Translations under genes and position numbers: made by a program
Origin: a virus
Reading direction: 5' to 3' (one strand)
IMG/VR virus record: IMGVR_UViG_3300025679_000016
Span: 1 to 37,592 of that record
Length of the DNA: 37,592 bases
Part shown: positions 5,324-37,592 of the stretch, piece by piece
How the letters are laid out: every line of letters starts with the position of its first letter
Position numbering within the stretch: the stretch's first letter is position 1
Notes under the pieces: generated by a model
Told to the model about the DNA's origin: nothing
Databases searched by the model: none
What the model saw: the letters and a program-made list of their open reading frames with translations, nothing else

Positions 5324-6690
5324 TGACTGACATTTCCCCCAATAAGCTGAGGGAAATAGAATATGAACGCCCTTGGCTGTACGATAAGCAGTCAGGGGCT
5401 TTCTTTACCACAAAACGATATTCCTATGTCGAAGCCAGCACCAAGGCCGGCAAGACACACGCCTGCATCGTCTGGATAACAGAGCAGGCCGCGCTGGAAG
5501 GCTTCGAGGGCTGGAATGGCTGGTGGGTGGCACCGACCAAGGCGCAGGCCAAGATCGCCTATACCCGTATCTGCAACGCCCTCCCGAAATCACACTACGT
5601 CAAGAACGAGGGCGAGCTTTTCATTCAGCTAATCAACGGCGCGCGCCTCTGGTTTAAGAGCGCCGAAAAGCCTGACAACCTCTACGGAGAGGACGTGCAT
5701 GCCGCTGTGCTCGATGAGGCCAGCCGCACCCGATATGACAGCTTCAAGGCGCTCAGGTCGACCCTGACGGCAACCGGCGGCCAGCTCAGGCTGATCGGGA
5801 ACGTCAAGGGGAAATCGAACTGGTTTTACATGGCCTGCCGCGGCGCGGAGCGGGGCCGTGAGAATGCGCTCTTCACACGCATCACCTGTTATGACGCGGT
5901 GGCGGCCGGCATCCTGACCCAAGCCGAAATAGATGACGCGCGGCAATCCGGCATCACCGCCAATGATTTCATGGAACTGTACGAGGCGCGCGCGGCCGAT
6001 GACGCTGACGCCTTCCTGCCCAGCAAGTACGTCGAGGAAGCGATCTCCCGCGGCCGGCTTCCCAAGGACCACAAGGACAAGCCGCGCCCTTACGGTCAGC
6101 TCATCATTGGCGCCGACCCCAGCCAAGGCAAGGGTGACGCGGCAGCCTTCTGCTTCCGGCGCGGGTCGGTGGTGGAAAAGGTTGAGGAACACCCGAACAT
6201 GGATGAGTTTGGCTTCAAGGCTCACTGCCTGCGCCTGATTGAAGTCCACAAGCCGCAGGGGCTGGCCAAGATATTCGTGGATGGTACCGGCTTCGGGTCG
6301 ACAATCGTCAAGATGCTGCACGAGAACAGCGCCGCGCGCGAGATCGTCAAGGGCTTCCACATGGCCGAGCGCTCCACCTACCCAGACGAATATGAGAACA
6401 AGCGCGCCGAGTGCTGGGGCGAGGGGCGAAAGGCGTTAATTTCCACAACAGACCCGTATAGCATCGAGGCAGACGATGACGGTTTCTGCATAGAGCTCAC
6501 GTGCATACGCAAGGTTGACAACCATTCCGGCCGCCTGCAGCTCGAAAGCAAAGAGCAGCTGAAAGAGCGCGGATATGACAGCCCGAACAGGGGTGATGCG
6601 TGGTCGTTAACCTATGCGGAGCCCGTCACATTTTACACCAGCCAAAAAATCGAATACCCTAAGGCAAGATTAAGCCGCAACATGACATAA
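5323..6690 (+). CDS. terL: Terminase large subunit
   Basis: The product is 455 residues. The ATPase half shows a Walker A-like ASTKAGKT (38-45) and Walker B AAVLDE (D131, E132), then a coupling segment around LRLIGNVKGKSNW. The nuclease half has the RNase H-like acidic residues D265 in IIGADPSQGKGD, D320 in IFVDGTGFGS and D425 in NRGDAWSLTY. It would pump DNA through the portal into the prohead and cut the concatemer. It overlaps the preceding gene by 3 bases, and the portal gene follows after 11 bases. Length and motif spacing fit the P22/Sf6-like terminases. Confidence 0.93.
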   Translation: MTDISPNKLREIEYERPWLYDKQSGAFFTTKRYSYVEASTKAGKTHACIVWITEQAALEGFEGWNGWWVAPTKAQAKIAYTRICNALPKSHYVKNEGELFIQLINGARLWFKSAEKPDNLYGEDVHAAVLDEASRTRYDSFKALRSTLTATGGQLRLIGNVKGKSNWFYMACRGAERGRENALFTRITCYDAVAAGILTQAEIDDARQSGITANDFMELYEARAADDADAFLPSKYVEEAISRGRLPKDHKDKPRPYGQLIIGADPSQGKGDAAAFCFRRGSVVEKVEEHPNMDEFGFKAHCLRLIEVHKPQGLAKIFVDGTGFGSTIVKMLHENSAAREIVKGFHMAERSTYPDEYENKRAECWGEGRKALISTTDPYSIEADDDGFCIELTCIRKVDNHSGRLQLESKEQLKERGYDSPNRGDAWSLTYAEPVTFYTSQKIEYPKARLSRNMT

Positions 6691-29967: not shown

Positions 29968-30290
29968 CCCATCCTCCCTATAATCAAATCGAGCGCGGCG
30001 AGTGCTGGCCTTGCTATTGTTCTGCATTGCACCCCTGTCAAGTCGTAGGCTGGCTTCCACATGGCAATCTTTCCCAGCGCATCCCTCACCCCCTTCAACA
30101 CCTCAACATCGGCGGTGCGCTTATCATCCACCACGGGTAGATCGGCGCGGGTGTTCCATTCAGATGTCTTAAACGGATAACCGTGCATATTGCATGATTT
30201 TGTGCAACATTCCACAGTGTCTTTATAGGGTATCCGTGGCTCGTATCCACAAAACGGGCACGCCTGCAACTCAGGGGGTTTGTCGGTCAT
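29952..30290 (-). CDS. Lar-like restriction alleviation family protein
   Basis: The product is 112 residues. The N-terminal block LQACPFCGYEPRIPYKD, followed by VECCTKSC, GYPFKTSEWNTRA, is the Lar-type zinc-binding pattern (CxxC plus later Cys pair and the W-N-x-R motif). The Rac prophage Lar protein modulates type I restriction; most family members are untested. The C-terminal helical part is an extension. It overlaps the next gene by 16 bases. Confidence 0.72.
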   Translation of the reverse strand: MTDKPPELQACPFCGYEPRIPYKDTVECCTKSCNMHGYPFKTSEWNTRADLPVVDDKRTADVEVLKGVRDALGKIAMWKPAYDLTGVQCRTIARPALAALDLIIGRMGCLQR

Positions 30291-30421
30291 TTCTGCACCT
30301 CAATGGGTTTATAAATTCTTACAGTCCCGCCGCCGATACGGTGAACATGCACGGGCTTACGCATCGGGCGGTGGCAGACGGAGCACTTAAACGCATCTTG
30401 TGGCCTAATCTTATTTTTCAC
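30287..30421 (-). CDS. Hypothetical micro-protein with CxxC
   Basis: The product is 44 residues from a GTG at 30419-30421 preceded by AAGGTGG. It contains CSVC plus His residues (CHRPMRKPVHVH) that could form a C2H2-like metal site, and ends with basic beta-type sequence. It overlaps the upstream stop (GTGA) and the downstream start (ATGA). Confidence 0.55.
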   Translation of the reverse strand: MKNKIRPQDAFKCSVCHRPMRKPVHVHRIGGGTVRIYKPIEVQK

Positions 30422-30636
30422 CGCGCCCACCTTTGCCGCTCGAAAGCAGCGCCCACGGCGTTTTCCTCTGGGATTTTCCAGTCAATTTCTTTCCACAACA
30501 CGCCGTCCTTGCTGATGTGTGGCTGCCGGTCAGGGTGAGCCAGCACGATATAGCCACCGATGTCGGCGCGTATCATTCCCTTGAGAGGAAACCCTGACGG
30601 TACGCGCTTAATTGGTTTTTTTGATAAGAGATGCAT
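30418..30636 (-). CDS. Hypothetical small protein
   Basis: The product is 72 residues. It begins with a basic segment (MHLLSKKPIKRVPSGFPLKG), then beta-type runs (DIGGYIVLAHP) and a Trp-containing end (VLWKEIDWKIPEEN). It overlaps the winged-helix gene by 29 bases. No family is recognised. Confidence 0.55.
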   Translation of the reverse strand: MHLLSKKPIKRVPSGFPLKGMIRADIGGYIVLAHPDRQPHISKDGVLWKEIDWKIPEENAVGAAFERQRWAR

Positions 30637-30877
30637 CTTTTTTCTCCACTACTGTTATCGAACGGTGTTTCTTGGGGTCACGGTGTATGCACCCCTTTTC
30701 CACAAGCGCATTGACAAGAAGGTGGACCTGTTGCTTTGTCACAAGCGATTGATTAAGGCGCCCCATTATGGTGGCAACCTCGTCAAGTGTAGGGCTTACG
30801 CCGGTATCGTCAATATGCCGGATGATGGCATAAAGGCATTGGCCCTGACGGGTTGGCAGGCCGATAAAACTTGTCAT
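30608..30877 (-). CDS. LexA-like winged-helix DNA-binding protein
   Basis: The product is 89 residues. TRQGQCLYAIIRHIDDTGVS with PTLDEVATIMG, then QQVHLLVNALVEKGCIHRD, follows the N-terminal DNA-binding domain of LexA (helix, SPT turn, recognition helix, wing). There is no peptidase domain, so it cannot self-cleave like LexA or CI. It may repress a phage or SOS promoter. It overlaps the nuclease gene by 4 bases. Confidence 0.7.
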   Translation of the reverse strand: MTSFIGLPTRQGQCLYAIIRHIDDTGVSPTLDEVATIMGRLNQSLVTKQQVHLLVNALVEKGCIHRDPKKHRSITVVEKKDASLIKKTN

Positions 30878-31509
30878 GCTGTCCTCATTTCCGCGACTTT
30901 TTCAGCCACGTTTTTCACCATTTGATTTAAAGCTGCCTCAAGTTTTGCGCAGTAAAGAACGTCCATTTCCAGACGAATACAAAAAGGTTTCAATTTGGGG
31001 TGGTAAAAGAAATTGTCGCACCACTTCCTCTTTGCCACCCAGAGCTGGCCCTGACACTGAGGAAAGTGCTTGGCTGAGATTTCCTTTTTATAAAACAGCC
31101 CGACATGGTTACGGCGTTTCAGGCACTTGATTTCAACCGTGCCGTCCTTGCCAAGCAGCCCGTCAAGGCTTGCCCCGATGGTGCCAGCATCGTTGGTGAT
31201 AAAGCCAGCCCGCTTGACGGTGTTGCCGGTCATCATTTCATAGGCCTGAATGGCCTTAGGCTCCAAACGCTTGCCGCGCTCGGTGAAATAGCTGCCGCCA
31301 AACTCATCGTCATAGCCGTCATCACCTTCCTCACCGTCATATTCTCCGGTCAGGATTTGGCCAACAACCTCGTTTTCAAGCTGGATGGATGAGGCTGACA
31401 TTTTATGCGTTTTGGGCGTCAGGACCTTGCCAAAGGTGCTGGCCGTGAACTTGCCAAGGCGCAGCTTGTACCACTCAGGAGAGCCTTGTACTACGTCATG
31501 GACAATCAT
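30874..31509 (-). CDS. YqaJ/lambda-Exo-type recombination exonuclease
   Basis: The product is 211 residues. QGSPEWYKLRLGKFTAS opens the YqaJ fold. The catalytic acids and Lys are visible as D116 in GASLDGL and E127-x-K129 in VEIKC. The family digests dsDNA 5-prime to 3-prime to expose a strand for an annealing protein. The ERF gene lies in the same operon, three genes upstream, so this is a two-part recombination system with SSB. Length is close to lambda Exo. Confidence 0.88.
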   Translation of the reverse strand: MIVHDVVQGSPEWYKLRLGKFTASTFGKVLTPKTHKMSASSIQLENEVVGQILTGEYDGEEGDDGYDDEFGGSYFTERGKRLEPKAIQAYEMMTGNTVKRAGFITNDAGTIGASLDGLLGKDGTVEIKCLKRRNHVGLFYKKEISAKHFPQCQGQLWVAKRKWCDNFFYHPKLKPFCIRLEMDVLYCAKLEAALNQMVKNVAEKVAEMRTA

Positions 31510-31727
31510 TTTACACCGCCAATATTGGCAATCGCGTGAATGTCACTTACGTCAAGGACACGATAAATTTGATTTTCAATCATGCACTTAAAGCTTGTCG
31601 GCCACCAGTTTACTAGTTTTCCATTTATAGTTTTTTGGTAGTGCCACTCTGTGCATTTCTTCCACCCAGCAGTTTCAGCAGTTAAAAGCCTGTTGCGCCT
31701 GTTCTGTTTGTATGTTGCGCGGCTCAT
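31506..31727 (-). CDS. Hypothetical small basic protein
   Basis: The product is 73 residues, basic and Trp-rich (MSRATYKQNRRNRLL, GWKKCTEWHY, LVNWWPTSFKCMI). The C-terminal YRVLDVSDIHAIANIGGVK is beta-alpha in character. It is coupled by 4-base overlaps to the two nuclease genes around it, suggesting an accessory role in recombination. Unrecognised. Confidence 0.6.
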   Translation of the reverse strand: MSRATYKQNRRNRLLTAETAGWKKCTEWHYQKTINGKLVNWWPTSFKCMIENQIYRVLDVSDIHAIANIGGVK

Positions 31728-32284
31728 GCTGCCACCGCCTGCCGGTCAAGGTATGCCCAATAGACGCGGGCGCAGGCCCACACGTCTGCCAGAGCATCGT
31801 GCGCCCCGTCAAAGCCTTGGCCGGTAAAGAACTCATGCGCCTCTTTGAGAGACGGCGGCTTATTGCCCGTGCGACCGGCAGCAACCATCTTCTCAGTCGG
31901 CGGCAGGCCCACGAGATCGGTGGTCAACTTCATGGTGCACTCCACCCGCGGCATGGCCAGAGGAAAGCCGGTGCGGCCCATGGTGTACTGCAGGCGCCCA
32001 ACGTCATACTGAGAATTGTGAAAGACCAGAACGTCAGCGCGCGCGCAAAAGCCGTTAAACACGGACAGGACCCCACGGACATCGAGGCCGTACTTTTCAC
32101 ACATCTCCTGAGTGATACCATGGAAAGCGGCGGTTTCTGGCGGCATCACCCAGCCGTCAGGCTTAATCAGGCTCTTGAACTGGCCCATGACCTTCCTGTC
32201 CTTGTCGAAAAGTAGAAATGCAATCTGGGCGATTTCGGCGTCAGCCCGCAGGCCGGTGGTTTCTGTGTCGGCTACAACGTACAT
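31724..32284 (-). CDS. DnaQ-like 3-prime to 5-prime exonuclease (DEDDh)
   Basis: The product is 186 residues. All five DEDDh positions are visible: D6 and E8 in DTETTG, D94 in HNSQYDVGRL, H162 and D167 in HDALADV. It is a stand-alone exonuclease with no polymerase domain. The phage encodes no DNA polymerase, so it probably acts with the ERF/YqaJ recombination set, trimming 3-prime ends or RNA. Length matches small phage DnaQ-like proteins. Confidence 0.87.
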   Translation of the reverse strand: MYVVADTETTGLRADAEIAQIAFLLFDKDRKVMGQFKSLIKPDGWVMPPETAAFHGITQEMCEKYGLDVRGVLSVFNGFCARADVLVFHNSQYDVGRLQYTMGRTGFPLAMPRVECTMKLTTDLVGLPPTEKMVAAGRTGNKPPSLKEAHEFFTGQGFDGAHDALADVWACARVYWAYLDRQAVAA

Positions 32285-32288
32285 GATT

Positions 32289-33233
32289 TTATGCTTTCTT
32301 CTGTTGGGGTTTTTGCCCGATGCTGGCGATCAGCACCTTGGCGGCTTGGTAGTCTTTTGCCTTGAGTGAGGGGATGGCGTCAACCTCAAAATGGGCTAGG
32401 AAGCGCTCTTTTAGCTTTTTGGCGCCGTCAGCATCAAAGGCGGCAATCTTGGCGCGCAGCAGCGTGTCAATCTCCGCAGCCAGCTCGCTCTCCATTGCCT
32501 CGCCCTTGGCACCCAGACCATCGTCATCCTCGTTTATCGTGATGAGGTTGAGCAATATCTTGGTGCCGTACCGGACGCCATAAGAGGCCGTGCTGCCCAT
32601 GCCCTGCAGATTAGTCTTTCCACCGGACGTGTCGATGGCCAGAGGCAGCTCGCAGACGGTTTCGTGGCCGTCCTTGTGGGTTAGCTTGGCGATGGAGATC
32701 AGGCCACCCCCCTCGCGCACCTTTGACGTGAAAGACAGAGTGAACCCGAAGCGCGGCAAGATCGGGCGCACCACCTCGTCAATGTCCTCGATGACGGCAT
32801 AGGTGAAGGCCTCGGACATTTTGCCGGTTTCTTTGTCTTTGTACTCAACGCCCTTGGTTTTGACGATGCGGGGCAGCTCCAACGACATGGCAGAAAAATC
32901 ACGGGCAAATGCCATTTTTGCCATGCGGTCCCAAATCTGCAGCTGCATGTCGAGCAGGGCCTGAACCTTGGTCACATCAATGTCTGGGTTTTGCGCGAGC
33001 TTCTCAATCAGGCCAGACATGCCGGCAGCAGCCATTGCAGCGCTGTCGGTGGCCGGAGCGCCCGTCAGGACGGCCGGCAGCTTTGCGGCAGGCGCCACGG
33101 CCGTGGGTTTCATTTTGGCGATGCCGCCATTTCGGGGCAGCTTTTCGCCAACATTGACGGCAGCGACAGCCTCGGCGCTGGCAAGCAGATCAGGGTTTAC
33201 TTGGGGGGATTGTTTTTTCACGTTACGCTCCAT
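32289..33233 (-). CDS. ERF-family single-strand annealing protein
   Basis: The product is 314 residues. After an Ala/Pro-rich N-terminus of about 90 residues, the ERF core appears: RIVKTKGVEYKD, FTYAVIEDIDEVVRPILPR, GFTLSFTSKV, AKLTHKDGHETV, LQGMGSTASYGVRYG and LLNLITINEDDDG. ERF proteins pair complementary single strands and can circularise phage DNA, as in P22. The C-terminal 70 residues are a helical tail. Its start overlaps the upstream gene by 11 bases. Confidence 0.9.
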   Translation of the reverse strand: MERNVKKQSPQVNPDLLASAEAVAAVNVGEKLPRNGGIAKMKPTAVAPAAKLPAVLTGAPATDSAAMAAAGMSGLIEKLAQNPDIDVTKVQALLDMQLQIWDRMAKMAFARDFSAMSLELPRIVKTKGVEYKDKETGKMSEAFTYAVIEDIDEVVRPILPRFGFTLSFTSKVREGGGLISIAKLTHKDGHETVCELPLAIDTSGGKTNLQGMGSTASYGVRYGTKILLNLITINEDDDGLGAKGEAMESELAAEIDTLLRAKIAAFDADGAKKLKERFLAHFEVDAIPSLKAKDYQAAKVLIASIGQKPQQKKA

Positions 33234-34269
33234 AGTTAATTGTTACGTGCCGGATTGTTCCGGTCACGATAGCTTTAATAAGTGCCTTGGCTCCGTCCTC
33301 TTTGCAGCCATAGGCCATAAGGTCAGCAAGCACCTCACGGTTAATGAGCGCCTTGGCCTCGTCCTTGATCGGCGCTGACGGTTTTGGAGCTGCAAAGCTC
33401 GCATAACCTCCGGCGCTTTGTGGCTGGCTGACGATGGGCGCAGCAACGGCAGACTGTGCAGCTGGCGCAGCTGGAGCTATTGAGGCGAGGCGCTGTCCCT
33501 CCGCAATCCCGTCAATCCGCGCTTGTTCAACACGGGCGTCCTCAAGGGCCTTTGCTTGACTGGCCCGCAGCTTGACCAGCTCGGCAGCGTCAGCCTCAGC
33601 CTGTTTGGATACCACAAGGGTGGCGGCGAGACTTTCAGAAACGGCCTTATAGGTTGTCTGGTAAAGCTCGTCAAATTCCTCCCAATTGCGCTGCTGGAAA
33701 ACCATGATGAAGTCAATGCGGCGCTGCACTTCGGCGCTTGACGGGCGGGCGGTCATAAACATCAGCTGGTCACCGATGTCCTTCAGGTGCTTCTCGTGCG
33801 TATCTTTGCGCTTTTTGTCGGCATCCTCAAGCAGCGTGACAGGGCGGCGCACTTCCTCATGCCATTGGTCCAGAGTGTCCCTGAACAGCTTGCGCAGGGC
33901 GTCAATGCGCTTCGGCTCGTCTTTAAGAACGGCCACGTAGTCCTTGCCCAGATCATCGACGGCAGTCTTTGTCTTGGTAAAACGGTTTGCAAAGGAGACT
34001 ATCGCCTTTCTGCCGGCCGGCGTGGTGGCATCGGGAGCAACAAAATCATTTTTCTCCTTCTCAATGCGGGACAAAAACTCCTGTATATTTTCGGATGTAA
34101 ACACCTTGACGGGCAGCATGCCCTCGATGTTGACAAGCTCGACGGTGACAACAGACGTGGCGACATCTTGCACGGGGTTGGTTGTTTTTTTAATATCGGC
34201 CGCGTCAGTGATGCCTTGAGCGATTTCTGCGGCGATTTTCTTGGAGGTCTTTTTAGCGGTGGCGGTCAT
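33223..34269 (-). CDS. Recombination-operon coiled-coil protein, unknown function
   Basis: The product is 348 residues. ATG 34269 (MTATAKKTSKK) follows AAGAGAG and starts just after the upstream gene's stop; the longer frame would overlap that gene fully. Residues about 60-190 (VFTSENIQEFLSRIEKEKND, FTKTKTAVDDLGKDYVAVLK, IDALRKLFRDTLDQWHEEVR) resemble the N-terminal part of phage DUF1351-like proteins found beside recombinases. A long coiled coil and an Ala/Pro hinge follow, then a C-terminal domain around INREVLADLMAYGCKEDGA. It probably assists the ERF/YqaJ pair. Confidence 0.68.
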   Translation of the reverse strand: MTATAKKTSKKIAAEIAQGITDAADIKKTTNPVQDVATSVVTVELVNIEGMLPVKVFTSENIQEFLSRIEKEKNDFVAPDATTPAGRKAIVSFANRFTKTKTAVDDLGKDYVAVLKDEPKRIDALRKLFRDTLDQWHEEVRRPVTLLEDADKKRKDTHEKHLKDIGDQLMFMTARPSSAEVQRRIDFIMVFQQRNWEEFDELYQTTYKAVSESLAATLVVSKQAEADAAELVKLRASQAKALEDARVEQARIDGIAEGQRLASIAPAAPAAQSAVAAPIVSQPQSAGGYASFAAPKPSAPIKDEAKALINREVLADLMAYGCKEDGAKALIKAIVTGTIRHVTINYGA

Positions 34270-34270
34270 T

Positions 34271-34477
34271 TTAGGCTCTCTTTCTTTGGTTAAGGATGAT
34301 GACGTTTGAGGGAAGTGCCGGAGAGGTGGCGGGGGGTCTTTGGGGGTCAAAGCATGGCCACCCCTCCGGTTGTCTTGGCTGCATGTGGGGGTGCGTCTTG
34401 GGGTTTCTCATGCAGTACCAAAAATGGTGCCAGTTAACGGTGGAGGCAAAGGGGCCGGTGGGGTCATGCGGTTTCAT
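34271..34477 (-). CDS. Hypothetical protein, low confidence
   Basis: The product is 68 residues, Pro/His/Trp-rich (TVNWHHFWYCMRNPKTHPHM), with no clear secondary structure. It is coupled by ATGA to the upstream gene and its stop lies 1 base before the next ATG. The composition is unusual for an early phage gene, so it could be a leader or spacer frame; the tight junctions favour translation. Confidence 0.45.
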   Translation of the reverse strand: MKPHDPTGPFASTVNWHHFWYCMRNPKTHPHMQPRQPEGWPCFDPQRPPATSPALPSNVIILNQRKRA

Positions 34478-34641
34478 GCGTCACCTACTTGGTCCATCAA
34501 ATCGTTGATTTCGTCAATGATGGTGTCCACCCAATTTAAGGCACCGGCGTCAGTTTCAATGCGGTTGCGCACCTTTGTCAGCTCGTCCTTGGATTTGGCG
34601 AGGTTTTCTTTGTCGGCAGCGGTGAATTTATGCTTGGCCAT
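34474..34641 (-). CDS. Hypothetical helical micro-protein
   Basis: The product is 55 residues with AAGGACG upstream. It is one or two helices (ADKENLAKSKDELTKVRNRI, WVDTIIDEINDLMDQV). The stop overlaps the next ATG. It is well supported by ribosome site, overlap and helical periodicity; no family is known to me. Confidence 0.62.
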   Translation of the reverse strand: MAKHKFTAADKENLAKSKDELTKVRNRIETDAGALNWVDTIIDEINDLMDQVGDA

Positions 34642-34642
34642 T

Positions 34643-34861
34643 TTAAGCGTCCTTTCTATTGTTTTTAGCGTTGTTGCAGCGGTGCGCGGCGATGGTGTTG
34701 TTTGCGTCCATTTCAGCCTCGGCCAATTTTACAAGCCACCTCAATTCTTTGAGTGCGAAAGCATGCTTACTGACGGCATTATTGGCTGCACAGGTTGGCA
34801 CAGATGCTTCGAGGGCATCAAGCGCGGCCACGGCGGTGTCGTAAAAATCTGAGGTGTCCAT
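34643..34861 (-). CDS. Hypothetical helical small protein
   Basis: The product is 72 residues. It is helical throughout (FYDTAVAALDALEASV, SKHAFALKELRWLVKLAEAE) with a basic end. It starts one base past the upstream stop region (shared A) and is preceded by a GAGAG-type site. Unrecognised. Confidence 0.6.
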   Translation of the reverse strand: MDTSDFYDTAVAALDALEASVPTCAANNAVSKHAFALKELRWLVKLAEAEMDANNTIAAHRCNNAKNNRKDA

Positions 34862-35055
34862 TATTTGCCCTCTCTTTTATAGAGGTCAAAATACTTGAAA
34901 TTAGACCTCTCGCTGCCGTGGTTTTTGCAATCGTCACAGAAGCCGGAACGATACCCTGTGTCCTTCTGGCCTATCCATACGGCGGGTGCGCCGCACTCGT
35001 GCCCGTATGTTCCTATATTTGAATTGTGGCATTTTCCGTCTGTCGCGTATGTCAT
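34861..35055 (-). CDS. Small Cys/His metal-binding-like protein, first gene of the leftward operon
   Basis: The product is 64 residues. ATG 35055 follows GGAGAAA, and the promoter at 35117-35145 would start RNA near 35110, which excludes the start at 35148. Residues C9 and H10, then H20, C22 and a later FCDDCKNHG give a probable zinc site of the kind seen in early phage proteins. Function unknown. Confidence 0.65.
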   Translation of the reverse strand: MTYATDGKCHNSNIGTYGHECGAPAVWIGQKDTGYRSGFCDDCKNHGSERSNFKYFDLYKREGK

Positions 35056-35116
35056 TTTATTTTCTCCGTTTTTTGTTTCGATGACGTTGCAGGGTGCAGC
35101 GCCTTGCCTGATTGCG

Positions 35117-35145
35117 AATGTAAACAAAACGTCAGAGGCGGTCAA
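35117..35145 (-). promoter_or_regulatory. Sigma70 promoter of the leftward early operon
   Basis: On the minus strand, TTGACC (35140-35145) and TACATT (35117-35122) are 17 bases apart, the strongest consensus pair in the window. RNA would start near 35110, about 55 bases before the first gene. No other good leftward promoter was seen, so it probably drives the whole operon down to 28125. Confidence 0.75.
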
Positions 35146-35165
35146 CATTTATTTCAGCATAATTT

Positions 35166-35175
35166 AAAATATTTT
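35166..35175. promoter_or_regulatory. AT palindrome between divergent promoters (candidate operator)
   Basis: AAAATATTTT is a perfect palindrome lying between the two divergent -35 boxes (GGTCAA at 35140 and TTGACC at 35179), which are 33 bases apart. The next rightward gene encodes an Arc-type protein, and such proteins bind short palindromic operators. Operator function is inferred. Confidence 0.35.
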
Positions 35176-35178
35176 CTA

Positions 35179-35207
35179 TTGACCACCATTTTATATTCCT
35201 ATATGGT
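35179..35207 (+). promoter_or_regulatory. Rightward promoter for the Arc-type gene
   Basis: TTGACC (35179-35184) and TATGGT (35202-35207) are 17 bases apart. TATATG at 35200-35205 is an alternative -10. The -10 is weaker than that of the facing leftward promoter. AAAGGACAC lies before the ATG at 35228. Confidence 0.5.
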
Positions 35208-35227
35208 TTCACCGAAAGGACACATAA

Positions 35228-35386
35228 ATGGCAGACAATATCCCCAAAAGCCTATCATTACCCCCAGAATTGGTTGACAAGATAGAAAAGCTCAGAACCA
35301 AGGAACGGCGCTCTTTTAATGCACAGGTTACAATATTGCTCGAAAAGAGCTTTTCCAGTGGGGAAAGACGTAGAAATGGCCTATAA
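35228..35386 (+). CDS. Arc/MetJ-type ribbon-helix-helix repressor
   Basis: The product is 52 residues, after GAAAGGACACATAA. KSLSLPPELVDKIEKLR forms the strand and first helix, and RRSFNAQVTILLEKSF the second, matching the Arc/Mnt family of phage regulators that pair a beta strand in the major groove. It sits directly downstream of the divergent promoters and probably controls both. It overlaps the next start by 11 bases. Confidence 0.82.
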   Translation: MADNIPKSLSLPPELVDKIEKLRTKERRSFNAQVTILLEKSFSSGERRRNGL

Positions 35387-35828
35387 GGACCACAGACCCA
35401 AGGGCAACCCGTTCCTGAGGACTACAGAGGATTGGCGGCAGCTGGCCAAGAAATCGCACCTGTGCACAGCCTGCCTGCACAGCCAGCCGGAGACATGGAA
35501 GGCCGCCTGCCCCAAGTGTGGGGCTCCGCAGGGCAACCGTGAATACATGCCCAGCGCAGCAGAGCTCCGGCGCGCCTCCCAGCTCATCCTGCTCCTGCGC
35601 TCCGGCCAGATCAGCCAGCTCAAGTTTCACCCCCGCTTTGACCTCAAGGTCGACGGCATACTGGTGTGCAAGTATGAAGCAGATGCCCAATACGTCGAGA
35701 ACGGAAAACAGGTCATCGAGGACACCAAGGCGCAGGGTGACTTTATCGAGCCGGTTGCCAAGCTCAAGATTGCCCTGTTTAATGCCCTGCACCACAAGCT
35801 GGGCCTGACGGTCAAGCTGCACAGATAA
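35376..35828 (+). CDS. DUF1064 nuclease-like protein with N-terminal zinc ribbon
   Basis: The product is 150 residues. ATG 35376 follows GGGGAAAG; the frame's earlier start at 35319 would lie within the Arc gene. Residues 30-48 hold a CxxC-11-CxxC zinc ribbon. Residues 61-140 follow the DUF1064 pattern: RRASQLILLLRSGQISQLKF, a KYEADAQYVENG strand with D103, and QVIEDTKA with E115-D116 and K118. This fits a PD-(D/E)xK nuclease, suggested to be a resolvase-like enzyme. The zinc-ribbon fusion is uncommon. Confidence 0.75.
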   Translation: MAYKDHRPKGNPFLRTTEDWRQLAKKSHLCTACLHSQPETWKAACPKCGAPQGNREYMPSAAELRRASQLILLLRSGQISQLKFHPRFDLKVDGILVCKYEADAQYVENGKQVIEDTKAQGDFIEPVAKLKIALFNALHHKLGLTVKLHR

Positions 35829-35832
35829 TTCT

Positions 35833-35865
35833 AAACGGCAAAAACCCCCGTTTTAATTGGGTTTT
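35833..35865 (+). terminator. Weak hairpin, possible terminator
   Basis: AAAACCC (35841-35847) can pair with GGGTTTT (35859-35865), or AAACGG (35833-35838) with CCGTTT (35848-35853). The two folds are mutually exclusive, as in an attenuator. Neither is followed by a long T-run, so termination would be partial. Confidence 0.35.
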
Positions 35866-35887
35866 AAACACAAAAGGAGAGACTAAA

Positions 35888-36283
35888 ATGGCTAAAGCAA
35901 AGAAAAAGGCTGTCGAGGACTTTGATGACAACGTCGATATGACCGGAAACGCCAAGGTGGCGGCGATGGGCGGCAACATCAAGGGGATTCACGATGACTG
36001 CAAAACGTCCTATGACCGCATCGAGCAATGGAAGAAAGAGCGCAAGGCCATAAACGACAAGATCAAGGCAGAGCGGGAAACCATGGAGGCCAAGGGCATC
36101 ACCAAGACAGCCTTTGACGCCGCCATGCACTACGTCAACATGGACCCAGACAAGCGAAACGGCTTTGACACAGCCTACATCATTGCCCGTGAGGGTCTTG
36201 GTGCGCCGGTCAAGGGTGCGCAAGCCGACCTTTTCGGCTTGGCCGTAGCAGCTGACGAAACGGTGGACGGCGATGACGAATAG
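35888..36283 (+). CDS. GapR/DUF2312-like coiled-coil protein
   Basis: The product is 131 residues, after AAAAGGAGAGACTAAA. An acidic start is followed by a long helix (CKTSYDRIEQWKKERKAIND and on) and AKGITKTAFDAAMHYV with NMDPDKRNGFDTAYI. The helix-plus-KGI pattern recalls GapR-type DNA-associated proteins of Alphaproteobacteria and related phage proteins, but conservation is loose by eye. Nucleoid or replication association is a guess. It overlaps the next gene by 11 bases. Confidence 0.6.
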   Translation: MAKAKKKAVEDFDDNVDMTGNAKVAAMGGNIKGIHDDCKTSYDRIEQWKKERKAINDKIKAERETMEAKGITKTAFDAAMHYVNMDPDKRNGFDTAYIIAREGLGAPVKGAQADLFGLAVAADETVDGDDE

Positions 36284-36698
36284 CACAGAAAAAAAGCCGG
36301 TCTGGCAGTACGCCAAAGAGGCACGGGAACGGAAAGCAACGGCAGCGGGGGAATCGGCTAAAAAGCCAATAAAACCCAATGCCGGCGCAGTCTCCAAGGG
36401 GTCAGAGGAAATCAGTGTCAAGGTGTCCAACCCTGACGTCGATTTCAATGCCCAAATCATCCCCATGAAGTTTTTGAAGCGCGCGGGCGTAAAAACATAC
36501 GCTGGCGAGCTGAAAGAGCGCCTGCTGGACGTGGAAGAGGCCCCTGACGGGGCTTATTTCCTCCTGCCGGTCAAGCTGCCCAAAAAGGTCTATAAAAAGC
36601 TCCTTTTGGCGGCAATCGAAATGGAAAAAGTAAGCCCAGACTGGACCGAGCGCGACATGATCGAGGCCATTATCATCTTTTCTAAAACAAAACCTTGA
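36273..36698 (+). CDS. Hypothetical protein
   Basis: The product is 141 residues. The N-terminal 50 residues are basic and disordered-looking (Lys/Ala/Glu). The C-terminal part is alpha/beta: VDFNAQIIPMKFLKRAGVKT, GAYFLLPVKLPKKVYKKLLL, then MEKVSPDWTERDMIEAIIIF. Unrecognised. The promoter of the next unit begins within its stop region. Confidence 0.65.
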   Translation: MTNSTEKKPVWQYAKEARERKATAAGESAKKPIKPNAGAVSKGSEEISVKVSNPDVDFNAQIIPMKFLKRAGVKTYAGELKERLLDVEEAPDGAYFLLPVKLPKKVYKKLLLAAIEMEKVSPDWTERDMIEAIIIFSKTKP

Positions 36699-36722
36699 TT
36701 ACAATCAAATCTGAGGCATAAT
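36695..36722 (+). promoter_or_regulatory. Promoter for HNH and DUF1376 genes
   Basis: TTGATT (36695-36700) and CATAAT (36717-36722) are 16 bases apart. TTGATT also forms an inverted repeat with AATCAA (36703-36708), a possible operator. RNA would begin near 36729, exactly at the 5-prime arm of a long hairpin. Confidence 0.6.
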
Positions 36723-36727
36723 ACCAA

Positions 36728-36788
36728 AAATGAGGGCTAGGTTTTGCCGCCGAAAAGGGTTTTCTCCAAGTAATCCCTGCCCTCATTT
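36728..36788 (+). ncRNA. Structured 5-prime leader (candidate cis-regulatory RNA)
   Basis: AAATGAGGGC (36728-36737) and GCCCTCATTT (36779-36788) form a perfect 10-bp stem enclosing 41 bases. Inside, GAAAA (36752-36756) and TTTTC (36760-36764) form a second hairpin. The predicted RNA would start with this fold and run about 60 further bases to the HNH start. No U-run follows, so it is not a simple terminator. An RNA or DNA-level role (leader, operator or origin) is possible. Confidence 0.45.
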
Positions 36789-36851
36789 CCTTCCTTAAAC
36801 TTGGTGCGCGAATGGCAATAGCGTAAAAACTTCAAACCTTGGGGATAATCA

Positions 36852-37202
36852 ATGAAACAAACATATTCAGAGCTTTTAGCATCATCAGAATGGCAAGAAA
36901 AACGCCATAAAATACTGGTGCGCGACAAATTTACATGCCGTCATTGTGGCTCTTATGATCGGCTTGAGGTGCATCACACCGCATATAAATTCGGTGACCC
37001 GCCGTGGTGTTACCCCGACCATTTTTTACTGACTTTATGCCGCCCATGCCATGAAAACGAGGGGTTAAACGGTTCAAAGGACGCCATAGCTATGCTTTCA
37101 CAGGTAGGATTTAAAGAGGATGATTTTTATGAGCTTTCTATGGCCATAGCGCGCAACCCAGCACCGTTTAAAAATCTTTTGGAGGTGCTGAGAAATGGCT
37201 GA
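36852..37202 (+). CDS. HNH endonuclease
   Basis: The product is 116 residues, with GGGGAT upstream. The HNH core reads C29-x-x-C32, LEVHHTAY (H41, H42), a GDPPWCYP loop, then C63-x-x-C66-H67-E. The fold binds zinc and a catalytic metal. The C-terminal 40 residues are helical. It could be a homing-type nuclease or a replication/packaging nick enzyme; its position before a replication gene, away from terminase, favours a homing or replication role. It overlaps the next gene by 8 bases. Confidence 0.85.
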   Translation: MKQTYSELLASSEWQEKRHKILVRDKFTCRHCGSYDRLEVHHTAYKFGDPPWCYPDHFLLTLCRPCHENEGLNGSKDAIAMLSQVGFKEDDFYELSMAIARNPAPFKNLLEVLRNG

Positions 37203-37592
37203 GTTTCCCGCACTCCCCCTCTTTACTGACGCCGTTGTTGCCGATTGCAACCACCTTTCTGATGACGAGTTTGGCCTGTATATGAGGATTTTAATTCTCA
37301 TGTGGCGGTCACCAGAATGTCAGATACCGGCACAAGCTGAGTGGCTCGAAAAGAGGCTCAAAAGAGACATAACTGTCATCGTTCCTTTGCTCACGGAATT
37401 TTGCATTTCTGACGGCAATTTTTTCACGCAAAAAAGATTATATAAAGAGTATCTTTGGGTGAAGAAAAGGAGCAAAAAACAGAGCGTTAACGCTAAGTCA
37501 TTGTGGAATAAGAAAAAAGTGTTAAGCCAAACCGATGCCAAGTCGATGCCAAACGACAGCCAAACCGATGCCCCCCCCCCCCCCCCCCCCCC
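37195..37592 (+). CDS. DUF1376-type replication protein, N-terminal part (cut by contig end)
   Basis: The sequence starts at ATG 37195 after GGAGG. The first 60 residues (MAEFPALPLFTDAVVADCNH, LSDDEFGLYMRILILMWRSP) are a clear DUF1376 domain. A basic helical stretch (KKRSKKQSVNAKSLWNKKK) and a polar linker with repeated DAKSMP/TDA follow. The frame then enters 22 C residues and ends at the contig edge. The C-terminal half is at 343-741. The proteins act near phage origins, probably as replisome organisers; this role is from family context. Confidence 0.85.
   Translation, partial: MAEFPALPLFTDAVVADCNHLSDDEFGLYMRILILMWRSPECQIPAQAEWLEKRLKRDITVIVPLLTEFCISDGNFFTQKRLYKEYLWVKKRSKKQSVNAKSLWNKKKVLSQTDAKSMPNDSQTDAPPPPPP
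37571..37592 (+). repeat. Terminal poly-C run (22 bases)
   Basis: Twenty-two consecutive C end the contig inside the Pro linker of the DUF1376 gene. It may be a real Pro-coding tract that stopped assembly, or an artefact of two-colour sequencing (poly-G). The C-rich start of the partner half at 320-340 suggests the true linker is C-rich. Confidence 0.8.

Follow-up and report, generated by a model that had tools for sequence, protein, structure and literature searches.

A divergent int-alpA-type RNA before an HNH endonuclease-like gene in a viral genome, and its probable role as a C4-like antisense repressor

The locus and the fold of its RNA

The window (by which we mean the full viral stretch of 37,592 nt, IMG/VR record IMGVR_UViG_3300025679_000016, with positions counted from its first letter) contains a 153-nt gap at 36699-36851, bounded by a 141-aa ORF of no known kind that ends at 36698 and by an HNH-type gene that starts at 36852. 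The gap is the largest among the listed rightward ORFs from 35228 on, as the initial annotation had proposed when it placed a promoter and a stable leader fold here, ahead of HNH and DUF1376 genes. Both gene assignments are borne out, the first through PHROG, where the protein matched HNH endonuclease families with no Pfam match at 0.01, and the second through a Pfam match to DUF1376 that falls under its cut-off (25.6 against 30.1 bits) together with a PHROG match to a primosomal protein (E 4.4e-11). The DUF1376 start (37195) overlaps the HNH stop, and from this overlap we postulate that the two genes are probably translationally coupled and controlled together. Farther upstream lie an Arc-like repressor gene (35228-35386, PHROG E 3.9e-5) and, on the same strand as the gap's features, a protein (35376-35828) with a PHROG Holliday-junction-resolvase match (E 4.6e-9) and zinc-ribbon and DUF1064 matches below cut-off. 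The DUF1376 gene is cut at the record end by a C run (37571-37592) that looks like an assembly or library artefact.

The features are as follows, with the evidence for each; RF02996 is the Rfam model of int-alpA RNA and R1 a model built from relatives of the window RNA.

36695..36722, + strand: sigma-70-type promoter-like pair, -35 TTGATT (36695-36700), 16-nt spacer, -10 CATAAT (36717-36722); 9 of 12 matches
36695..36708, no strand: perfect palindrome TTGATT-AC-AATCAA (TTGATTACAATCAA) over the -35 box, possible operator; sequence
36728..36737, + strand: P1 helix, 5' arm; inverted repeat, R1 model, covariation in relatives
36740..36751, + strand: P2 hairpin, 36740-36742 with 36749-36751, last pair U-G; RF02996 and R1 models, covariation in relatives
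36752..36756, + strand: GAAAA junction, inside a CGAAAAG string; alignment, R1 model
36757..36776, + strand: P3 hairpin, with loop 36762-36771 (UUCUCCAAGU) as proposed antisense element; models and loop-site matching
36779..36788, + strand: P1 helix, 3' arm; inverted repeat, R1 model
36789..36796, + strand: pyrimidine stretch after P1, possible RNA 3' end; family base composition
36799..36804, + strand: site 1, ACUUGG, complementary to loop CCAAGU (36766-36771); loop-site matching
36838..36845, + strand: site 2, CUUGGGGA, over the HNH Shine-Dalgarno, pairing with UCUCCAAG (36763-36770); 8 pairs, one G-U
36852..37202, + strand: HNH endonuclease-like gene, 116 aa, proposed direct target; PHROG HNH endonuclease families, best E 1.5e-12
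37195..37592, + strand: DUF1376/primosomal-like gene, cut by the record end; Pfam, PHROG

The perfect 10-bp stem claimed for the leader is present, with AAATGAGGGC (36728-36737) pairing with GCCCTCATTT (36779-36788), and when the 153-nt gap was dinucleotide-shuffled 300 times, 3 of the products contained a perfect inverted repeat of 10 bp or more. The stability claimed for the leader holds for the 73 nt at 36723-36795 (folding z -2.96; 0 of 200 shuffles as stable) and fails for the whole 129-nt leader, which is unremarkable (z -0.99; 28 of 200 shuffles as stable) and is not supported as an unusually stable fold. Likewise, the stem does enclose hairpin structure, but according to the family model this consists of two hairpins, P2 and P3, rather than the single inner hairpin first described. 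No clear terminator follows P1, and the tail after it contains no run of four T; the terminator scan covered loops of 3-8 nt, a range that puts P1 itself beyond reach.

Family membership, covariation and the promoter

No Rfam family was matched at its curated cut-off anywhere in the window. At permissive settings, RF02996 matched 36730-36800 over the whole model (31.3 bits, E 2.1e-6 for the record), and because this score falls short of the gathering cut-off of 35.8 bits, the RNA is filed as a divergent relative and not as a formal Rfam member. At the permissive limit (E 10) the model also matched 7 of 14 control genomes, none above the cut-off. The full-length match includes the P1-P2-P3 fold and all three of the strings CUAG, CGAAAAG and CCUG that characterize int-alpA RNA, and RF02996 matched all seven of the pattern-picked loci that were scanned, three of them also below the cut-off (34.7, 33.1 and 32.3 bits). 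Model R1, built from 57 relatives with the window excluded, gave a match at 36730-36786 (39.9 bits, E 1.3e-8) that was the only one in 37.6 kb, and it recovered 34 of 37 loci fetched through RF02996, some of which coincide with loci used to build it. Judged by sequence and predicted fold, the RNA at 36728-36788 is a divergent int-alpA-type RNA, which is an already known class. The suggestion of a new cis-regulatory RNA is therefore upheld in that the element belongs to a conserved structured RNA type, but the class is not new. The int-alpA name was taken from a position between integrase and alpA-like genes; in the window, the immediate neighbors, to which this comparison was confined, are the 141-aa ORF of no known kind and the HNH-type gene, and among the relatives a Phage_integrase match was found for 16 of 73 upstream ORFs.

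Relatives were collected with DNA patterns in which CTAG, CGAAAAG and parts of P3 were fixed, and the instances were filtered for a P1 of at least 6 pairs, so that conservation of these strings, of P3 and of P1 in the covariation test is partly by construction; P2 and the loop-site match described below are independent of the selection. The collection comprised at least 149 motif instances with at least 95 distinct cores, counting the window and its copy L001 and skipping L300. From 145 of these, 90 sequences including the window were obtained by dropping L001 and rows with less than 90 nt downstream and by merging near-copies. A start codon was assigned by script to 89 of the 90, some perhaps wrongly. 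The next gene was scanned in 78 of these 89, leaving out 11 short or doubtful reading frames, and the upstream ORF (the longest on either strand within 700 nt, which may not always be a gene) in 73 of 75, leaving out those of the window and of L097. The alignment of 57 relatives was reached by leaving out 9 of 66 rows (five long misaligned loops and four P2 or loop variants). A second set, picked by the Rfam model, consisted of the 33 scored among 34 R1 matches at 37 RF02996 loci. By blastn, no close relatives of the window were found among phages; neither its HNH protein nor its upstream protein had close relatives in viral contigs, and one structural protein gave a single weak phage match. 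Covariation could consequently be assessed on distant relatives only.

In the 57 relatives, 96.4% of cells were paired over the three helices, and the covariation score was 0.785, compared with 0.155 in shuffled and at most 0.145 in slid alignments, while the number of pairs with two-sided change showed no excess (11 versus 10.8 in shuffles). P2, which played no part in the selection, was 97% paired, with changes on both sides in two of its three pairs. When the P1 filter was omitted, P1 was lengthened by at least 5 pairs in 61 of 98 distinct matches of one pattern, compared with 7 of 588 slid positions. The CGAAAAG string, itself part of the search patterns, was present in 57/57 aligned relatives. 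The covariation check that had been proposed for homologous leaders thus gave a positive outcome for P1 and P2, in distant relatives.

The promoter described in the initial annotation exists as a promoter-like pair whose -35 box overlaps the stop codon of the upstream ORF, and its predicted RNA start (~36728-36730) sits on the 5' arm of the stem, as claimed. Taken by itself the pair is a weak signal, pairs like TTGATT-16-CATAAT numbering 12 in 30000-37592 against 5.6 +/- 2.1 in shuffles. Its placement is, however, backed by the relatives. Boxes resembling -10 (5 of 6 matches, with A2 and T6) numbered 25 where the gap to the P1 5' end was 1-9 nt and 8 across the remaining 31 gaps tested (89 sequences, window included), and promoter pairs scoring at least 8.5 occurred in 26% of the family versus 11% of shuffles. 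Most members were without a clear promoter in this test; because the boxes cluster and the pairs exceed shuffles, an RNA start on the P1 arm appears to be a supported trait of part of the family. The palindrome over the -35 box may be an operator, for which the Arc-like repressor (35228-35386) is one candidate binder. Allowing up to 2 mismatches, it occurs just once in the window, and a repeated operator within this phage was accordingly rejected. Counting the window, 15 of the 89 sequences carry an upstream palindrome with arms of at least 6 bp, against 6% of shuffles, and palindromes with arms of at least 5 bp were hardly enriched (28 of 89 versus 24.5%), giving a weak signal of a family trait.

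The pyrimidine-rich stretch after P1 raises the question of whether the RNA is an attenuator or terminator of the upstream operon. In the 89 sequences, window included, the first 5 nt past P1 were 40% T, 31% C and 5% G, and TTTT occurred within 14 nt in 16 of 89, compared with 8% in shuffled 14-mers and 4% of upstream 14-mers, as might be expected of such an element. The window tail, however, has no four-T run, and conservation of three helices together with loop matching exceeds what a terminator would call for, making this explanation very improbable.

The P3 loop and its downstream sites

Across the relatives, the reverse complement of the P3 loop recurs once or twice just downstream of the RNA, in many cases overlying the next gene's ribosome-binding site. 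The duplex energy between loops and their own tails was -11.1 kcal/mol, compared with -8.34 +/- 0.22 kcal/mol for permuted pairs (z -12.6; n=90, window included). At least one Watson-Crick 5-mer site was found for 18 of 20 loop types (17 of 19 without the window) versus 24% of 380 swapped pairs, and two or more sites for 10 of 20 (9 of 19) versus 2.4% of the swapped pairs; the P1 arms, P2 hairpin and GAAAA junction gave background levels in the same test. Counted by sequence, 79 of 89 had a site, 54 had two or more and 10 had no 5-mer site, and in 60 of 89 a site ended within 13 nt of the start codon, with site ends peaking 5-9 and 20-24 nt before it. Related copies showed matched changes, the loop reading ATCCA and the site TGGAT in L240, and GTCCA and TGGAC (more than one site) in L242. 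The loci picked by the Rfam model behaved similarly, with a site in 30 of 33 and two or more in 19 of 33; by loop type, sites were found in 4 of 5 own versus 30% of 20 swapped pairs, and two or more in 3 of 5 versus 0 of 20, a swap control that is weak because this set contains just 5 loop types. When targets were ranked by energy, a loop's own target came first for 5 of the 90 loops and reached the best 5% for 26 of them; it is seldom top-ranked because many loops resemble each other. Sequence comparison thus makes a strong case for the antisense reading in the pattern-picked set.

Hairpins at site 2 were also enriched, with a best stem of at least 6 bp in 43 of 89 sequences versus 21% of mononucleotide shuffles, which suggests that a hairpin-presented site 2 may form a kissing contact with the P3 loop. 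In L262, L154, L003 and others, the region separating site 1 from the start codon often forms a small hairpin that carries site 2 in its loop. This presentation, enriched in the set, is absent in the window, where the best hairpin before the start codon has 5 bp and site 2 is not in a loop.

In the window itself, the P3 loop has its complement at the HNH ribosome site, and the HNH start region is its best partner, rank 1 among the starts of 53 ORFs (mechanical ORFs with ATG, at least 60 aa); the DUF1376 start region ranks fifth. Over the whole record, 11 of 6830 scanned segments pair with the loop as well as the HNH start region does. Against shuffles of its own tail, the loop-tail match reached p 0.04 in duplex energy, p 0.064 in site number and p 0.11 in the longest run when G-U pairs count, a modest result for the window alone. 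Its two sites start 39 nt apart, wider than the spacing common in relatives. With the family comparison, the antisense reading is probable for the window as well.

Likeness to C4, mechanism and the genes behind the RNA

The arrangement resembles that of C4, the antisense RNA of phages P1 and P7, whose 5' end is generated by RNase P and which represses translation as a separate molecule. In the phage P1 record, promoters are followed by C4 RNA, by sites a2 and b2, and then by icd, which overlaps ant1. In the Rfam C4 model (RF01695), P1 closes P2 and P3, a topology that the window RNA shares, and in both cases there are two downstream sites, the second immediately preceding a gene whose end overlaps the gene after it. 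When the C4 sites were held against the sequence by eye, b2, just before icd, matched the P3 loop, and a2 matched the P3-P1 junction, giving C4 two antisense elements. The window RNA, in contrast, has one loop for two similar sites, a P3-P1 junction of 2 nt and no second antisense element. Membership in the C4 family was rejected: no C4 (RF01695) match was found in the window at E up to 5, whereas C4 of phage P1 itself scored 68.8 bits with that model, and R1 had no match in a 20-kb phage P1 stretch. The window RNA is thus like C4 in anatomy and yet not C4. The c4-a1b1 target region of phage P1 (L300, 8231-8312) also matched isrK RNA at 35.1 bits, under the cut-off of 50.

We propose, at a probability of roughly three in four, that the window RNA is a C4-like antisense repressor of the HNH-DUF1376 pair, an int-alpA-type RNA made from its own promoter. 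The RNA at 36728-36788 would be transcribed from that promoter, and P1 would close a three-way junction presenting the P3 loop. The loop would then pair with the two short downstream sites, the second of which overlaps the HNH Shine-Dalgarno, and its binding to site 2 would block ribosome entry at the HNH gene. Since the DUF1376 start overlaps the HNH stop, repression of HNH would also lower expression of the coupled, replication-type DUF1376 gene. The logic would be that of C4 in phage P1 (promoter, RNA, sites a2 and b2, icd-ant). From this anatomy, which fits a C4-like antisense RNA, we infer a separate RNA molecule that represses, with action in trans conceivable alongside action in cis.

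According to passages of PMC5320573, C4 is processed by RNase P and then binds target mRNAs, and its b' loop partly occludes ribosome-binding sites. A different reading of the same parts is that of a leader acting in cis only. The P3 loop would reach the Shine-Dalgarno of its own transcript by forming a pseudoknot and would work as a thermosensor, a riboswitch or a delay switch, without any separate RNA. In keeping with such a leader, both sites follow shortly after the RNA in that transcript and P1 has no clear terminator behind it; a single pseudoknot, however, should need no two sites for one loop, and in its -10 box ahead of P1 and its sequence of parts the locus agrees with C4, a processed RNA in the passages just cited. 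We consider the leader unlikely, although it deserves to be kept in mind alongside the antisense repressor.

Other known systems are less similar. In T4-like phages, leader hairpins control translation of free-standing homing endonucleases, and the likeness lies in RNA structure at the ribosome site holding nuclease translation down; those leaders are simple local hairpins, whereas the window has a conserved three-helix RNA with a matched loop. With int-alpA RNA (RF02996), the window RNA has in common the three helices and the CUAG, CGAAAAG and CCUG strings, and the Rfam-picked loci share the loop-matched sites (30 of 33 scored); it differs in its score under the cut-off and in its HNH-type next gene. 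Within the terms that we used, the searchable literature yielded no function for int-alpA RNA or RF02996, and the passages in which int-alpA RNA appears list it among predicted RNAs. Among the titles listed on homing endonucleases with antisense RNA or leader structure, none concerned int-alpA-type RNA; PMC12197685 cites a title on a cyanophage homing endonuclease gene and an antisense RNA associated with it.

Examination of the genes behind the relatives revealed homing-type nuclease families (HNH types, endonuclease VII, GIY-YIG and LAGLIDADG) in 15 of 78 next genes, window included, with L203 and L257 called just under Pfam cut-offs and L194, L242 and the window through PHROGs. Among the 25 families listed, out of 27, for the 73 upstream ORFs, there was no homing-type nuclease. 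The other next genes, among the 25 families listed out of 29 and with families that can overlap on one protein, included KilA-N (4), Rha (2), Bro-N (1), ORF11CD3 (4), Dam (2), DUF927 (4), DUF6387 (4) and Lin1244_N (1); Rha and ORF11CD3 each occurred once among upstream ORFs too. The RNAs of the relatives hence precede homing-type nucleases, antirepressor-type genes and replication genes, and the next genes with a family match are mostly non-nuclease.

These neighborhoods bear on the idea, raised in the initial annotation, that the leader serves HNH as a recognition or insertion site and travels with the nuclease. The nuclease share of next genes speaks for it, and so does one phage locus, L098, in which the RNA and a KilA-N next gene lie together inside a 915-bp accessory block; phage AUS531phi shares the two flanks at 96% without matching the block, in whose place it has 408 bp of other DNA. 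This was the one case of joint carriage seen, in a block comparison made for KilA-N only, and the gene was not a nuclease. For the nuclease-bearing copy L244, a search for an empty site with one flank (a 558-aa neighbor) returned 35 records, all below 60% identity. What is conserved, moreover, is a set of compensatory RNA pairings and a loop that changes along with the ribosome site of the next gene, and most family-matched next genes are not nucleases. We regard a recognition or insertion site as hardly credible; of the notion of carriage with a nuclease, the frequent nuclease neighbors stand, and the joint movement was observed with KilA-N instead.

It is conceivable that int-alpA-type RNAs in general form a re-targetable phage antisense module, C4-like yet separate, in which a conserved scaffold carries a rewritable loop and moves with guest or early genes (HNH, endonuclease VII, GIY-YIG and LAGLIDADG nucleases, antirepressors, methylases, primase and initiator). 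Each copy would silence its own gene, and likewise that gene in any superinfecting phage whose loop is identical, amounting to gene-by-gene immunity. We offer this generalization tentatively, as somewhat short of an even chance. The antisense reading offers a concrete, testable function for int-alpA RNA, and would mean that C4-type antisense control is also exercised by another RNA type, separate from C4 and common, that stands before nuclease and replication genes. Loop-target pairs would then be natural translation switches, with partners readable straight from sequence.

Within the class to which one matched genome belongs, 40 of 369 sampled genomes have an RF02996 match, and 17 of 274 genomes likewise drawn have an R1 match at E 1e-5 or better. 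In L014, a Brevibacillus record, an int-alpA-type RNA (6028-6095, 50.8 bits) is followed by a LAGLIDADG-type gene; the other named genome matches are mostly Gram-negative. In L263, the RNA and its HNH gene are encoded together on the other strand from a neck-type gene. The L098 slot adjoins tail assembly gene I, and beside this gene in Pseudomonas phages the accessory DNA varies (L098 versus L338-L341), one version carrying the RNA with KilA-N.
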